From NCBI RefSeq assembly GCF_030410395.1, contig NZ_JAUHHF010000001.1, positions 186,001 through 250,000 of the forward strand: a stretch of 64,000 bases of DNA. Reading direction: 5' to 3'. The stretch is from Zwartia panacis. Its GTDB lineage: Bacteria > Pseudomonadota > Gammaproteobacteria > Burkholderiales > Burkholderiaceae_B. Shown here piece after piece: positions 18,422-23,972 of the stretch; position 1 is the stretch's first letter, and every line of letters starts with the position of its first letter. The notes below the pieces were generated by a model. It saw only the letters and a list, made by a program, of their open reading frames with translations, made no database searches and was not told the origin of the DNA. Position numbers and translations under genes: made by a program.

Positions 18422-19654
18422 TTAAATCAAATGAAGCAGCCAGCCCGTTAAACCTCCGACCATCACTACGAGCCATGGCGGGAGTTTCCAGAACATCAGC
18501 GCGACAAAGGCGATCAGTGCCAGGCAAAAATCCTGTGTACTGAGGATCGCGCTTGTCCAGACTGGCTGATACAGTGCGGCGAGTAACAAGCCCACGACAG
18601 ATGCATTGATGCCGCTCAGTGCTGCTTGCGTGCGTAGGTTTTGACGGAGTTGTTCCCAGAATGGCAGGGCACCTACGACTAATAAGAAAGAGGGAATAAA
18701 AATCGCGATCAGTGCGATCAGTCCGCCTGCCCAACCGCTGGGAGCACTCGTCATGGAGGCGCCGAGAAACGCGGCGAACGTAAAAAGGGGTCCTGGCATG
18801 GCTTGAGTGGCGCCGTATCCAGCCAGAAAAACTTGTTCCTCTACCCAGCCCGTCGGCACAACCTCGGTCTGCAGCAGTGGAAGGACGACATGACCACCAC
18901 CAAACACCAGAGAGCCTGCACGGTAAAAGGCATCCACGATGGCCAAGGTCTGACCAGGCATTGCTTCGGAGGCCAGTGGCAAGAGGATTAACAAGATAAA
19001 AAAGAGAGCAAGCCAGAGACTTCCCGTTCGCCGTGAGATCTGAATGGGAAGAGGATCGTGTGGGGCAAGCTGAGCAGGTTTGAATAGGGCTACACCCGAG
19101 ATTCCAGCCACAATGATCACGCCTACTTGAGCCCAAACCGACGGCATGAGCAGTACGGCGCAAGTGGCGAGCATCATGATCGAGATGCGTTTTTCATCTG
19201 TACACAGACTGCGAGCCATGCCCCAGACTGCTTGCGCCACAACCGCCACCGCGACGATTTTTAAACCATGAAGTGCTCCGGCCGAGAAACTGTTGCCGGC
19301 ACTTGAGATCCCAATCGCAAAGAGAATCAGCACGATTGCCGAGGGAAGGGTAAAACCCGCCCAGGCTGCAAGTGCGCCAGCGTAGCCTGCTCTCGAAAAA
19401 CCTAGTGCGATGCCGACCTGACTGCTGGCTGGTCCTGGGAGAAACTGACAGAGCGCGACGAGATCTGCATAACTTCGGTCGCTGAGCCATTGTCGACGTG
19501 TGACGAACTCTTCTCGAAAATATCCCAGATGGGCGACGGGTCCTCCGAAAGAAGTCAGCCCAAGTCTGAGGAAAATCAGAAAGACTGTCCAGACGGAGCG
19601 GTTATTGGAGCGTTTTTCGGATCGGTTTTCGTTTGATGGGGGAGATGTTGTCAT
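18422..19654 (-). CDS. chrA: ChrA-type chromate efflux transporter
   Basis: A 410-residue inner-membrane CHR-superfamily transporter with two homologous halves (long-chain form). The N-terminal half carries the conserved FGGPVAHLGYFREEFV and LPGPASSQVGIALG, and the second half carries FGGGHVVLPLL and GPLFTFAAFLGA. Family members export chromate; some relatives may move other oxyanions such as sulfate, so a link to the neighbouring selenium genes through oxyanion handling is conceivable but unsupported. It is divergent from egtD, with a 117-bp gap. Confidence 0.88.
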   Translation of the reverse strand: MTTSPPSNENRSEKRSNNRSVWTVFLIFLRLGLTSFGGPVAHLGYFREEFVTRRQWLSDRSYADLVALCQFLPGPASSQVGIALGFSRAGYAGALAAWAGFTLPSAIVLILFAIGISSAGNSFSAGALHGLKIVAVAVVAQAVWGMARSLCTDEKRISIMMLATCAVLLMPSVWAQVGVIIVAGISGVALFKPAQLAPHDPLPIQISRRTGSLWLALFFILLILLPLASEAMPGQTLAIVDAFYRAGSLVFGGGHVVLPLLQTEVVPTGWVEEQVFLAGYGATQAMPGPLFTFAAFLGASMTSAPSGWAGGLIALIAIFIPSFLLVVGALPFWEQLRQNLRTQAALSGINASVVGLLLAALYQPVWTSAILSTQDFCLALIAFVALMFWKLPPWLVVMVGGLTGWLLHLI

Positions 19655-19771: not shown

Positions 19772-20749
19772 ATGACCCAGCGGATCCCGAGTTTTTACAA
19801 GACCTTTGAAATTGATCCCGCTGCGGTGGTGGCCGAGTTAGAGTCGGGCCTGTGCTCGCCGCATGCACATTGCTCACCAAAATATTTCTACAACGCTTTG
19901 GGTTCAACCTTGTTTGAGGCCATTACGCATTTGCCTGAGTATTACCCGACGCGTACCGAAGCCAGCATTTTTACTGAACACGCCAATGAGATTCACCGTC
20001 ATATCCCTCTCCAAGCTGCGTGGATCGATCTGGGAGCCGGGAGTTGTCAAAAAGCAGTGAGCCTGTTCGCTGGAACGACACCTGGGATGTATGTGGCGGT
20101 AGACATCTCGCTGGATTATTTGACGGGTACGCTGATTCAACTGCAGCGCAGTCACCCGACGCTCGAAATGGTTGGCGTGGGGATGGACTTTTCCTCATCT
20201 CTTGATTTCCCTGCAGTACTCGCTAGTCAGTTCACTGAACGTCCGGTCTTTGCTTTTTATCCGGGGTCAAGCCTTGGCAACTTTACGCCCTCGGAGGCGC
20301 AGAAGTTTTTAGGTCGAGTGTCTCACGTTTGTCAAAACGCTCAAACTGGTTCTGGTTTACTGATCGGGATAGATTTGGTGAAGTCCAGACAAGTTCTTGA
20401 GCTTGCTTACGATGATGAACTGGGTGTGACCGCAGCATTCAATTTGAATGTCTTGAGACATATCAACACCTTATTGGGAACCAATTTTGATGTGCGTGAC
20501 TGGCGCCATAAGGCTTTATTTAACGAAGCAGAGTCTCGAATCGAGATGCACTTGATCGCCCGCCATGCTCTCACTGTGCGCTGGGGCAGTCGGTCGCGTG
20601 ATTTTCAGGCAGGAGAGGGTATCCATACTGAAAATTCCTACAAGTGGACGATTCCCGACTTTGATTCGCTTCTGAAGTCTGCAGGATTCTCAGAAACAAA
20701 ATACTGGACGGATCCCCAACAGCAGTTTGCCGTGTTTTGGGCGAGTTAA
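19772..20749 (+). CDS. egtD: L-histidine N-alpha-methyltransferase (hercynine synthase, EgtD)
   Basis: A 325-residue SAM-dependent enzyme that trimethylates the alpha-amino group of histidine to give hercynine. EgtD features are clear: the N-terminal SPKYFYNALGSTLFEAIT segment and PEYYPTRTE, the SAM-binding IDLGAGSCQKA, and YVAVDISLDYL. The length matches the family (about 320). It converges on senA with a 2-bp gap. Hercynine is the common precursor of ergothioneine and selenoneine; the neighbouring senABC genes point to selenoneine, although hercynine could also feed a sulfur branch elsewhere in the genome. Confidence 0.95.
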   Translation: MTQRIPSFYKTFEIDPAAVVAELESGLCSPHAHCSPKYFYNALGSTLFEAITHLPEYYPTRTEASIFTEHANEIHRHIPLQAAWIDLGAGSCQKAVSLFAGTTPGMYVAVDISLDYLTGTLIQLQRSHPTLEMVGVGMDFSSSLDFPAVLASQFTERPVFAFYPGSSLGNFTPSEAQKFLGRVSHVCQNAQTGSGLLIGIDLVKSRQVLELAYDDELGVTAAFNLNVLRHINTLLGTNFDVRDWRHKALFNEAESRIEMHLIARHALTVRWGSRSRDFQAGEGIHTENSYKWTIPDFDSLLKSAGFSETKYWTDPQQQFAVFWAS

Positions 20750-20751
20750 GT

Positions 20752-21903
20752 TCAGAGTGAATGGTGACAAACCCTGAAACCAGAGTAGATGTCGCGGCGC
20801 TCGGGTGTGAAAAAGTTGCGGTAATGCACATTGCGTAAATATGGGTGAGTCGCCCGTGCAGCGCCGCGTAGGACTTTTCGTGAACCAAACCAAGGCGCGG
20901 AATATTCGACGTAGGGGTGGGGCGTAAAGCCCTCGAAAGGTTCGAACGTGTCCGATGTCCATTCCCAGACATCGCCCCATTGGAAATTTTGTAGTGTGCG
21001 AGCAGCGTAGTCCCATTGGGCCTCGGTCGGGAGGCTGCACTGTGCCCAGCGGCAATAGGCTTGAGCGTCGTCCCAGGAGATGTGTTGGGCGCATGCTTCG
21101 GGATTGATAGGTTCCCAAGTGCCGAAGGTATTGATTTCATAAGGTACTGAGCCAGTCTGCGCCTTCGAGGGTTGGACATAGAGTGGCAATCGGTGTCCTG
21201 TTGACTCGACGAAATCGAGATACTCTCTCCAAGTCACCGGTTGCAGCGCAATGGCAAAAGATTCGAGCCTGGTTGTGCGTTCTCCGACTTCGTTATCAAA
21301 ACAAAACGACCGACCCGCCAAACCACTCCAGTTTGTCCCCATTTTCCAGTCGGTCGCTGTGAGCTGACTCATCCCCTGCGGATAGACATTAGGGTGTGAG
21401 GCCCATTGGGTCTCAAATGGAATCCCCAAGGCTTGGGCCATATAGGTACTGGCCTCCAGGTGCATCGCTTCATGTTGCAGTGCAAGCCAGTAAAAATAAA
21501 GTGCAGCTGAACCATCGGTTTCTTTTTCTAAAGTCACTAGTGTTGTATCAAGTGTCTTTCTCAGATAGTCCAAGCATTGCTCAGTTTTTAGGAGAGGGAG
21601 GGTCCAGCGCAGATCATGGGCGACTTGTGTACTGTCATACCATTGATCAGCCGAGTTGACGATCGAGGGTGCACGTTGGTGTTTGATGTCCTGAAAGACG
21701 CCGCGCTCCCTTTGTAGATTGCGCGCGATCCAATATTCCTGAAACCAGGCGAGGTGGCCTAATTCCCAGAGTGGAGGATTAAACTCATCCTCCAAAGGAA
21801 CCGTGAGTACACTGGCTCGCTGATAGCAGGCAAAAGCCTCGAGCGTATGCGCGCGCAGAGTTTTAAGCCCTCGAGCCAATATGTGTACTTCTGCTTGTCT
21901 CAT
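20752..21903 (-). CDS. senA: Selenoneine synthase SenA (EgtB-like mononuclear iron enzyme)
   Basis: A 383-residue protein with a DinB-like N-terminal domain and a C-terminal formylglycine-generating-enzyme (FGE-sulfatase) domain, the EgtB architecture. Probable iron ligands are His50 (ELGHLAWF), His144 and His148 (HEAMHLE). The C-terminus has the fold signature DIYSGFRVC. EgtB joins a thiol to hercynine; the SenA branch uses a selenosugar instead, giving selenoneine after C-Se cleavage. The SenA call rests on adjacency to senB and senC and the absence of egtA, egtC and egtE. On domain content alone EgtB would be equally valid. It is divergent from senB with only 21 bp between. Confidence 0.85.
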   Translation of the reverse strand: MRQAEVHILARGLKTLRAHTLEAFACYQRASVLTVPLEDEFNPPLWELGHLAWFQEYWIARNLQRERGVFQDIKHQRAPSIVNSADQWYDSTQVAHDLRWTLPLLKTEQCLDYLRKTLDTTLVTLEKETDGSAALYFYWLALQHEAMHLEASTYMAQALGIPFETQWASHPNVYPQGMSQLTATDWKMGTNWSGLAGRSFCFDNEVGERTTRLESFAIALQPVTWREYLDFVESTGHRLPLYVQPSKAQTGSVPYEINTFGTWEPINPEACAQHISWDDAQAYCRWAQCSLPTEAQWDYAARTLQNFQWGDVWEWTSDTFEPFEGFTPHPYVEYSAPWFGSRKVLRGAARATHPYLRNVHYRNFFTPERRDIYSGFRVCHHSL

Positions 21904-21924
21904 AATTCTTGCTAACCTCTTGTT

Positions 21925-22905
21925 ATGTCTATTTTACCCAAGCCTACACTGTTGAATGTTGTGATTGTCAGTCCTGCGCTGGCAGCGGCGAACAATGGCA
22001 ACTGGCAGACTGCCCAGCGCTACGCCAGACTACTGCGCGCGTTTTGCCGCGTCAGGATTGTGCAGCGATGGGATGGCAGTGAAAGCGATGATGTCATGAT
22101 CGCTCTGCATGCACGACGCAGCTATGAGTCGATCGCACAGTGGCATGTGCGCCACGGAACGCGCGGTTTGATTGTCGTTCTCACAGGTACGGATTTGTAT
22201 CGCGATATTCAGAGCGATCCGCAGGCGCAGCAATCGCTTCGCTGGGCGCATACGCTTGTTGTGTTGCAGTCTGAAGGGGTGCAAGCTGTGCCGGAGTCCT
22301 TTCAAGCAAAAACAGTCGTCGCTTTTCAGTCGACAACAACGCGTCAAACACTTCGCAAAACGCCAAGATATTTACGCGCGATTATGGTGGGTCATCTGCG
22401 TCCCGAAAAATCGCCTCGAACCTTTTTTCAGGCAGCCCGTCAGTTGGCATCGCATGGTGATATCCAGCTTCAGCACGTGGGTGGCGAACATGATCCCGAG
22501 CTCGCACAACTCGCGCATCAAACTGCTGCAGAATGCCCAAATTATGTTTTCCTCGGTGCCCGTTCACACGAGGCGACGCGAAGACTGATCCAGCGTGCGC
22601 ATGTTCTGGTTCACCCGAGCGTGATGGAAGGTGGAGCGCATGTCGTCATGGAAGCCATATGCAGCGGTGTTCCAGTGGTTGCTTCCCGCATCCCCGGCAA
22701 CGAGGGCATGCTCGGTCATGATTACGCTGGTTTTTTTCCGACAGAGGATGCGGCGGCTTTAGCTGAAGTTTTGCTGCGTTTGCGCCGTGACGCTTCGTTT
22801 TATGCTCAATTAATGGCTCAGTGCGCCTTGAGAGCCCCCTTGTTTGCACCCGCCCGTGAGCAAGAGCGTTTGATTACAATCGTCCAACAGTCTTTTTTGT
22901 CTTAA
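21925..22905 (+). CDS. senB: Selenosugar synthase SenB (GT-B glycosyltransferase family)
   Basis: A 326-residue GT-B-fold glycosyltransferase matching the group once described as TIGR04348. The N-terminal PALAAANNGNWQTAQRYARLL and the nucleotide-sugar binding EGGAHVVMEAICSGVPVV near residue 238 are visible. Characterised SenB forms a Se-glycoside from a UDP-sugar and selenophosphate, the first dedicated C-Se bond of selenoneine synthesis. The gene heads an operon with senC (17 bp downstream) and a transporter gene. No ribosome-binding site is visible in the very short leader. Confidence 0.9.
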   Translation: MSILPKPTLLNVVIVSPALAAANNGNWQTAQRYARLLRAFCRVRIVQRWDGSESDDVMIALHARRSYESIAQWHVRHGTRGLIVVLTGTDLYRDIQSDPQAQQSLRWAHTLVVLQSEGVQAVPESFQAKTVVAFQSTTTRQTLRKTPRYLRAIMVGHLRPEKSPRTFFQAARQLASHGDIQLQHVGGEHDPELAQLAHQTAAECPNYVFLGARSHEATRRLIQRAHVLVHPSVMEGGAHVVMEAICSGVPVVASRIPGNEGMLGHDYAGFFPTEDAAALAEVLLRLRRDASFYAQLMAQCALRAPLFAPAREQERLITIVQQSFLS

Positions 22906-22922
22906 CCCCCCCAAGGAATCTC

Positions 22923-23972
22923 ATGAAATCACTCGAGCCCCGCCTAACTTCACTGTCGCACGGTGGCGGTTGTGGATGCAAAATTGCTCCGGCCGTCTTG
23001 TCCGAGATTTTGAAGGGCACCCTTCAGATGCCGATTCCCAAAGAGTTGATGGTGGGTATCGCGACCGCTGACGACGCTGCGGTTTATCGTTTAAACGATG
23101 AACAGGCTTTGATCGCAACAACGGATTTTTTTATGCCGATCGTAGATGATCCGCATGAGTTCGGCCGCATTGCCGCAACGAATGCCATCAGCGATGTCTA
23201 TGCGATGGGGGGGCGTCCGATTTTGGCATTGGCGTTGGTTGGCATGCCGATCAATGTGCTCTCAACCGAGACGATCGGTAAAGTTCTCGAAGGTGGCGCT
23301 TCGGTTTGTCGCGCGGCTGGAATACCGATTGCGGGTGGTCACACAATCGACTCAGTCGAGGCGATTTATGGACTCGTTGTGCTGGGCCTCGTGCATCCCG
23401 ACCGTGTCAAGCGTAACGATGGCGCGCGCAAGGGCGATGTGATGATTTTGGGCAAGCCTGTTGGTGTGGGTATCTTGTCAGCGGCTTTAAAAAAGGAGGC
23501 GCTTGATGAGGCCGGATACGCTTCAATGATCCACAATACGACCAAACTGAATACGCCCGGTCCTGAGCTCGCCGAGCTCGAAGGCGTGCATGCCTTAACC
23601 GATGTGACGGGTTTTGGTCTGGCCGGACACGCCCTTGAAATTGCCCGTGGTGCCGACTTGACTGCCCAGATTAAATGGGCCGATGTGCCTTTGTTGCCGG
23701 GTGTGACTGATTTGATCAAGGCTGGAATGGTAACTGGAGCCTCAGGTCGCAATTGGGATGGCTATGGTCAAGACGTCAGTCTCGCGGTCAACTTGGGTGC
23801 AGAATGTAAAACCCTGCTGACCGACCCTCAAACCAGTGGCGGCTTGCTGGTGTGTTGTGCACCTGAAGCGGTGCAGGATGTGCTGGCGATCTTTAAAAAG
23901 CATGACTTCGGGCATGCCAGCGTGATTGGCCAGATTACCGAAAAGCAAGCTGCGCGTCTCGTGGTGGTCTGA
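22923..23972 (+). CDS. senC: Selenide, water dikinase (SelD / SenC)
   Basis: A 349-residue selenophosphate synthetase that makes selenophosphate from selenide and ATP. The catalytic loop GGGCGCK contains Cys17, Cys19 and Lys20, corresponding to the E. coli SelD Cys17 and Lys20; the residue is Cys, not selenocysteine. The AIR-synthase-like domain shows DDAAVYRL and the GRIAATNAISDVYAMGG segment, and the C-terminus has LLTDPQTSGGLLV. Position directly behind senB marks it as the selenophosphate source for SenB. It may also supply selenophosphate for selenoproteins or seleno-tRNA if those pathways exist elsewhere. Confidence 0.92.
   Translation: MKSLEPRLTSLSHGGGCGCKIAPAVLSEILKGTLQMPIPKELMVGIATADDAAVYRLNDEQALIATTDFFMPIVDDPHEFGRIAATNAISDVYAMGGRPILALALVGMPINVLSTETIGKVLEGGASVCRAAGIPIAGGHTIDSVEAIYGLVVLGLVHPDRVKRNDGARKGDVMILGKPVGVGILSAALKKEALDEAGYASMIHNTTKLNTPGPELAELEGVHALTDVTGFGLAGHALEIARGADLTAQIKWADVPLLPGVTDLIKAGMVTGASGRNWDGYGQDVSLAVNLGAECKTLLTDPQTSGGLLVCCAPEAVQDVLAIFKKHDFGHASVIGQITEKQAARLVVV

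Follow-up and report, generated by a model that had tools for sequence, protein, structure and literature searches.

A 64,000-base stretch of the Zwartia panacis genome (assembly GCF_030410395.1, contig NZ_JAUHHF010000001.1, positions 186,001 to 250,000, here contig C11:186001-250000; hereafter the window) was found to hold the selenoneine genes egtD, senA, senB and senC, followed by a gene for a transporter component, here named T. Selenoneine is a selenium antioxidant. The best reading, to which we give a probability of about 0.85, is that the sen core makes selenoneine and that T belongs to a linked importer of the betaine class. The core is of a known kind, ordinary and well identified; the linked transporter is the new element. 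The features, in window coordinates, are as follows.

19772..20749, plus strand: egtD, histidine Nalpha-methyltransferase (hercynine supply), 325 amino acids (aa); TIGR03438, Pfam PF10017
20752..21903, minus strand: senA, selenoneine synthase, EgtB-like iron enzyme, 383 aa; His50, His144, His148
21904..21924, no strand: intergenic gap of 21 bases from the senA start codon to the divergent senB start codon
21925..22905, plus strand: senB, selenosugar synthase, 326 aa; TIGR04348, relatives in the PDB
22923..23972, plus strand: senC/selD, selenide, water dikinase, 349 aa; Cys17, TIGR00476
23975..25489, plus strand: T, part of an ATP-binding cassette (ABC) importer, joining an OpuAC-type substrate-binding domain to a permease domain; PF04069, PF00528

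Identity of the sen genes

An earlier note on this DNA had placed egtD, senA, senB and senC/selD contiguously at 19772-23972 and had named His50, His144 and His148 of SenA and Cys17 of SelD. The open reading frames (ORFs), whose starts were set mechanically at the first ATG, GTG or TTG, match these positions and strands, and all the residues are present in the translations. It had also closed the locus at 23972; the four genes stand as described and this end does not. The unit seems to run on, because T begins 2 bases after the senC stop codon.

Three of the four core proteins exceeded the curated NCBIfam cut-offs of their families, namely EgtD (TIGR03438, 344.1 bits, cut-off 290.9), SenB (TIGR04348, 431.7 bits, cut-off 300) and SelD, i.e. 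SenC (TIGR00476, 421 bits, cut-off 125). The best family model of SenA is the SenA model NF041186, and its nearest solved chains, 8ryz and 8k5i (E about 1e-94), are both SenA. SenB was checked against the possibility, raised earlier, that it groups with unrelated glycosyltransferases; its best solved relatives, 8k5u, 8jjn and 8fbx (E about 1e-105), are characterised Se-glycosyltransferases. EGGAHV together with N20, T23 and K158 is reported to be important in Variovorax SenB (PMC10891094). The window protein carries EGGAHV at residue 235, RPEKS from residue 159 and NNGNWQT from residue 23, these being similar motifs located in the protein and not one-by-one alignments to N20, T23 and K158.

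The senABC cluster of Variovorax paradoxus has been described (PMC9814287). The window has the same SenA, SenB and SelD/SenC families; its SenA groups with the solved SenA 8k5i and its SenB has the EGGAHV motif. It also holds egtD, and T after senC; the published Variovorax locus map was not part of this comparison.

From family membership and residues we infer the following pathway. SelD/SenC would make selenophosphate, from which SenB, with a UDP-sugar (uridine diphosphate sugar), would build a selenosugar; EgtD would trimethylate histidine to hercynine, and SenA would then join selenium to hercynine, giving selenoneine. Selenoneine production with hercynine supplied by EgtD in the same locus, as proposed earlier, is the best reading, on which family scores, solved relatives and SenA trees agree.

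Gene egtD converges on senA with 2 bases between them. The gap between senA and senB has an identical length of 21 bases in four close relatives (loci L175-L178). A promoter scan returned a single weak site, a lower number than shuffled sequences gave on average.

Linkage of the transporter gene to the sen genes

T is a single chain in which Pfam matches PF04069 (OpuAC) at 28-282 and then PF00528 (binding-protein-dependent permease) at 329-495. Its linkage to the sen genes was evaluated in a genus set of 32 genomes, including the present one, with SenB counted when over its cut-off and T counted whole or in pieces. SenB was found in 26/32 genomes and T or its pieces in 26/32: both occur in 25 genomes, SenB only in 1, T only in 1 and neither in 5 (Fisher p 0.00017, a value that ignores kinship). 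The flank of T was readable in 23 loci; G628, G634 and G649, which have T in pieces only, were not counted. T adjoins senC or senA in 22 of these 23. Gene senC lies directly before T in 17 loci (L145-L161) and also in L268 and L270, and in three others, L265-L267, T stands just upstream of senC or senA.

The close relatives, which overlap with the genus set, are Zwartia vadi IMCC34845 (L178) and three metagenome-assembled genomes (MAGs), with SenB 80-83% identical. The gene order of the window, T included, is kept in L175, L176 and L178. The MAG locus L177 has no T between senC and a coenzyme A (CoA)-transferase gene, and its egtD ORF has just 372 bases. A chromate-type transporter gene (TIGR00937) lies upstream of egtD at window positions 18422-19654, and its product is 84-88% identical in all four relatives (4/4).

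In two genus genomes, G638 and G651 (loci L266 and L267), the senA next to T comes from a different SenA lineage: a tree forced to unite the SenA of L266/L267 with that of the genus is worse by 111 log units (approximately unbiased test, p-AU 8.5e-8), for a group picked after the tree had been seen. Three trees were built for T itself. The first, from untrimmed ORFs, was initially read as two recruitments to sen clusters; a smaller second tree placed all genus T proteins on one side of a branch (support 90/96); in the third, from trimmed cores, the two genus T groups are close, with only L300_T between them, and one clade is rejected (p-AU 0.003). Two independent recruitments were dropped as an explanation, and the trees disagreed on the exact placement of the L265-L267 proteins; the part that stands is the position of T beside two SenA lineages.

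It is very likely that senC, senB and T share a transcription unit, and the membership of T in the sen unit is supported by linkage. A literature search, covering mainly freely readable texts and not the original sen paper, returned no report of a transporter in a sen cluster. Synthesis of selenoneine is known, and the movement of selenoneine or its precursors in bacteria was not described in the literature searched; the betaine-type importer linked to the sen unit across the genus is a candidate, open to direct test, for taking up selenoneine or hercynine.

Binding pocket and possible ligands

The AlphaFold2 model of T had a mean pLDDT (predicted local distance difference test) of 88. Its best Foldseek match was Helicobacter pylori EgtU (8dp6), with 32% identity and a template modelling (TM) score of 0.91 on the target; pneumococcal EgtU, Archaeoglobus ProX (AfProX, a glycine/proline betaine binder) and choline binders came lower in the list. 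By alignment, the betaine cage and the carboxylate clamp are retained in T, as they are in the EgtU importers, and K32, T86 and R161 together with the cage residues Y83, N122, Y124, Y202 and Y226 are invariant in 22/22 aligned genus T proteins. In the preferred reading T would provide both the binding domain and the permease of an ABC importer, and its pocket would suit trimethylammonium-carboxylates (betaines).

Like the EgtU importers of Streptococcus pneumoniae (binding domain SpEgtUC) and H. pylori, T is a fusion of binding domain and permease. In SpEgtU the binding domain comes last, to judge from the residue numbers in PMC9732360, and in T it comes first. That paper states that G244, F293 and Y337 set SpEgtUC apart from AfProX; the corresponding residues are F34, Y83 and F120 in 22/22 genus T proteins, so the ergothioneine determinants are absent. 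T is therefore ruled out as a proven EgtU, with three pneumococcal determinants missing. The SpEgtUC mutants G244F and F293Y still bind ergothioneine, with Ka values of 2.0e5 and 2.0e6 per molar compared with 1.7e7 (PMC9732360), and H. pylori EgtU, as we read the alignment, shares Tyr and Phe with T at the second and third determinant positions. For these two reasons ergothioneine was kept as a possible function of T. The paper further gives a lower affinity for transport in H. pylori, and notes that how selenium substitution would alter binding by EgtUC had not been worked out (PMC9732360).

With AfProX, T shares Lys, Phe, Tyr and Phe at the sites where AfProX and SpEgtU diverge; it differs in having N122 where AfProX has Asp, in being fused to a permease and in being linked to sen genes. 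A histidine betaine is a possible ligand, judging from the pocket residues and the binding by the mutants. The most likely role of T is betaine uptake: it would take up selenoneine, hercynine, ergothioneine or a plain betaine, with energy from an ATPase whose gene lies in another part of the genome.

The partner ATPase

A partner ATPase in the same operon would be expected of an EgtU transporter, and none adjoins T in the window; loci L265-L267 (genomes G642, G638 and G651) do have one, with an ATPase ORF overlapping the start of T. The best model for the L266 ATPase is ProV, at 227 bits and thus below the cut-off of 326.6. Of 29 loci of the order from other genera, 12 have an ATPase gene before T whose product is 45-56% identical to that of L266; T thus often forms the membrane half of an ABC importer made by two genes.

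Several candidate partners were rejected. Searches of the own genome with TIGR01186 and with the L266 ATPase yielded no dedicated T ATPase, as none of the matches stands out. Short candidates in L293 and L297 lie beside amino-acid-type permeases and have GlnQ-type best models. The gene upstream of T in L304, L305, L307, L308, L315 and L316 matches at 32-33% only; that of L307, the only one of the six that was scanned, is MsbA-related.

Near the ATPase-T pair of L265-L267, genes for a major facilitator superfamily (MFS) transporter and an oxygenase-like protein were observed. The L266 oxygenase-like protein has a weak match, at 36 bits, to gamma-butyrobetaine dioxygenase, which fits betaine metabolism.

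Weighing the role of the transporter

T homologues were searched in 399 genomes of the order (E up to 1e-90) and were found in 74. SenB over its cut-off is present in 50 of these 74 genomes and in 66 of the 325 others; the resulting p of 1.5e-14 ignores kinship, the association is weak within families by eye, and it was not used as support. Six regions fetched from other genera of the family (L272-L277) have T and no sen genes.

A number of results weigh against a selenoneine locus with a linked importer. Among the T-bearing genomes of the order, 24 of the 74 have no SenB that reaches the cut-off, G170 among them with a partial SenB, and no T-like gene was found near SenB in 128 loci of the order, own genome excluded, within about 8 kb on either side or up to the contig end. 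Within the genus, G625 has T without SenB, with no sen gene near T in its locus L264, and G639 has SenB without T. The pneumococcal ergothioneine determinants are missing from the pocket, no ATPase gene lies beside T in the window locus, and the own-genome best matches to the L266 ATPase are just 34-39% identical. Finally, SenA scores 406.5 bits on NF041186, 13.5 bits short of the curated cut-off of 420.

The strongest alternative, whose chances we place a little short of even, accepts the sen genes as described and takes T for a general osmoprotectant (glycine betaine/choline) importer that has been a chance neighbour of senC since the genus ancestor. It overlaps with the preferred reading, from which it departs solely on the cargo of T and on the reason for its position. 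F34, Y83 and F120 are the same as in the glycine-betaine binder AfProX, and outside the genus T occurs among unrelated neighbours, in part without SenB in the genome, and was not found near SenB in the 128 loci. Against this, T lies by sen genes in 22 of the 23 readable genus loci, in varied orders and with two SenA lineages; a solute importer with no tie to these genes should have parted from them.

A narrower proposal is tentative and less likely than not: T would be a dedicated importer of selenoneine or hercynine, sharing a transcript with senBC, and would be the first transporter named in a selenometabolite pathway. If this were true, the cells would both make and scavenge selenoneine.

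Selenium and ergothioneine genes elsewhere in the genome

The host of the locus is a freshwater-type bacterium with an assembly of 3.34 Mb. The gene senC/selD encodes the sole close SelD of this genome, the second match being 25% identical over 151 residues. A search of the genome for selU and selA, suggested earlier, found selU over its cut-off and, at E 0.001, no match for SelA. SelU (tRNA selenouridine) would draw on this SelD as well, and the gene content suggests that a single SelD supplies selenium for both selenoneine and tRNA selenouridine, with SelA absent. The presence of selU, which would share this SelD, is also what could be said for a silent locus whose sen genes are a remnant, with selenium used for tRNA selenouridine only; every reading frame is open, the motifs are retained and SenB is present in 26/32 genus genomes, which makes this improbable.

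A separate egtB-egtD locus was found on contig C22 at about 300324-302506 (L005, L136). Its EgtB reaches 508.1 bits on TIGR03440 (cut-off 360) and its EgtD 295.5 bits (cut-off 290.9). The hercynine methyltransferase is therefore doubled, with one copy per pathway by position, and production of both ergothioneine and selenoneine looks likely from these gene sets.

A putative selenate-binding protein (TIGR04553) was also over its cut-off in the own genome, at C51:123702. This putative selenate ABC transporter belongs to a family other than that of T and, like T, is found inside some sen loci: a TIGR04553 binding protein is over the cut-off within L266 (372-3712) and L282. By BLAST, relatives of the L266 protein occur in 38 of 206 loci, including L267 (SenB is present in 192 of these loci, and part of them overlap).

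SenA versus EgtB

Grouping of SenA with true EgtB in a phylogeny had been raised earlier as the outcome that would overturn its assignment. In a tree of 117 rows, 105 SenA-like sequences, including the window SenA and the solved SenA 8k5i, split from 12 EgtB-like ones with a support of 100 in the Shimodaira-Hasegawa-like approximate likelihood-ratio test (SH-aLRT). The tree was made by a quick method, with SH-aLRT support only, from 133 collected sequences after removal of near-copies; the labels were given by the higher-scoring of two BLAST queries, so that labels and tree are not wholly independent. In a second tree, built with more care from 37 rows that include a single EgtB, the window SenA groups with its genus (100/100) and falls in a wider group with the solved SenA (94/83). 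SenA thus falls with solved SenA and apart from EgtB.

That SenA is really an EgtB-type enzyme and the locus makes ergothioneine is highly improbable: its score lies just under the NF041186 cut-off and this model gives the C22 EgtB 352.6 bits too, but on the EgtB model TIGR03440 it reaches only 182.3 bits of the required 360, against 508.1 for the C22 gene, the tree split is fully supported, and senB and selD adjoin it.

Gene order across the order

The 128 SenB loci of the order comprise 115 over the TIGR04348 cut-off and 13 below, each with about 8 kb on either side of SenB, some cut by contig ends. SenA was in reach in 81, SenC in 56 and EgtD in 38. In 77 of the 128, senA lies upstream of senB on the opposite strand, and in 14 egtD also converges on senA, as in the window; the gene order, described as distinctive in the earlier note, is thus shared with other loci and not unusual. 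Of these 14, senC lies between senA and senB in 3, and the SenB-like match is below the cut-off in 7.

Among the 115 loci over the cut-off, 41 (e.g. L016, L021 and L022) are without SenA in the fetched stretch, some of them ending at contig ends. Loci L133, L135, L137, L140 and L142-L144 hold SenB-like proteins that reach only 156-209 bits on TIGR04348, far under its cut-off. Found beside SenA/EgtD homologues in one family of small genomes, these proteins appear, by sequence, to be a diverged SenB branch.

In some sen loci the SelD beside SenB carries an additional N-terminal part, a pyridine nucleotide-disulfide oxidoreductase. The model TIGR03169 was over its cut-off in 4/4 fusions tested (L101:8834-11338, L028:9062-11347, L189:10976-13249 and L180:4266-6554), and the fusion may possibly couple selenium reduction to selenophosphate synthesis. 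In another genus of the family, SenB is split over two frames at G536:C2:74545-75532, by a frameshift or an assembly error.

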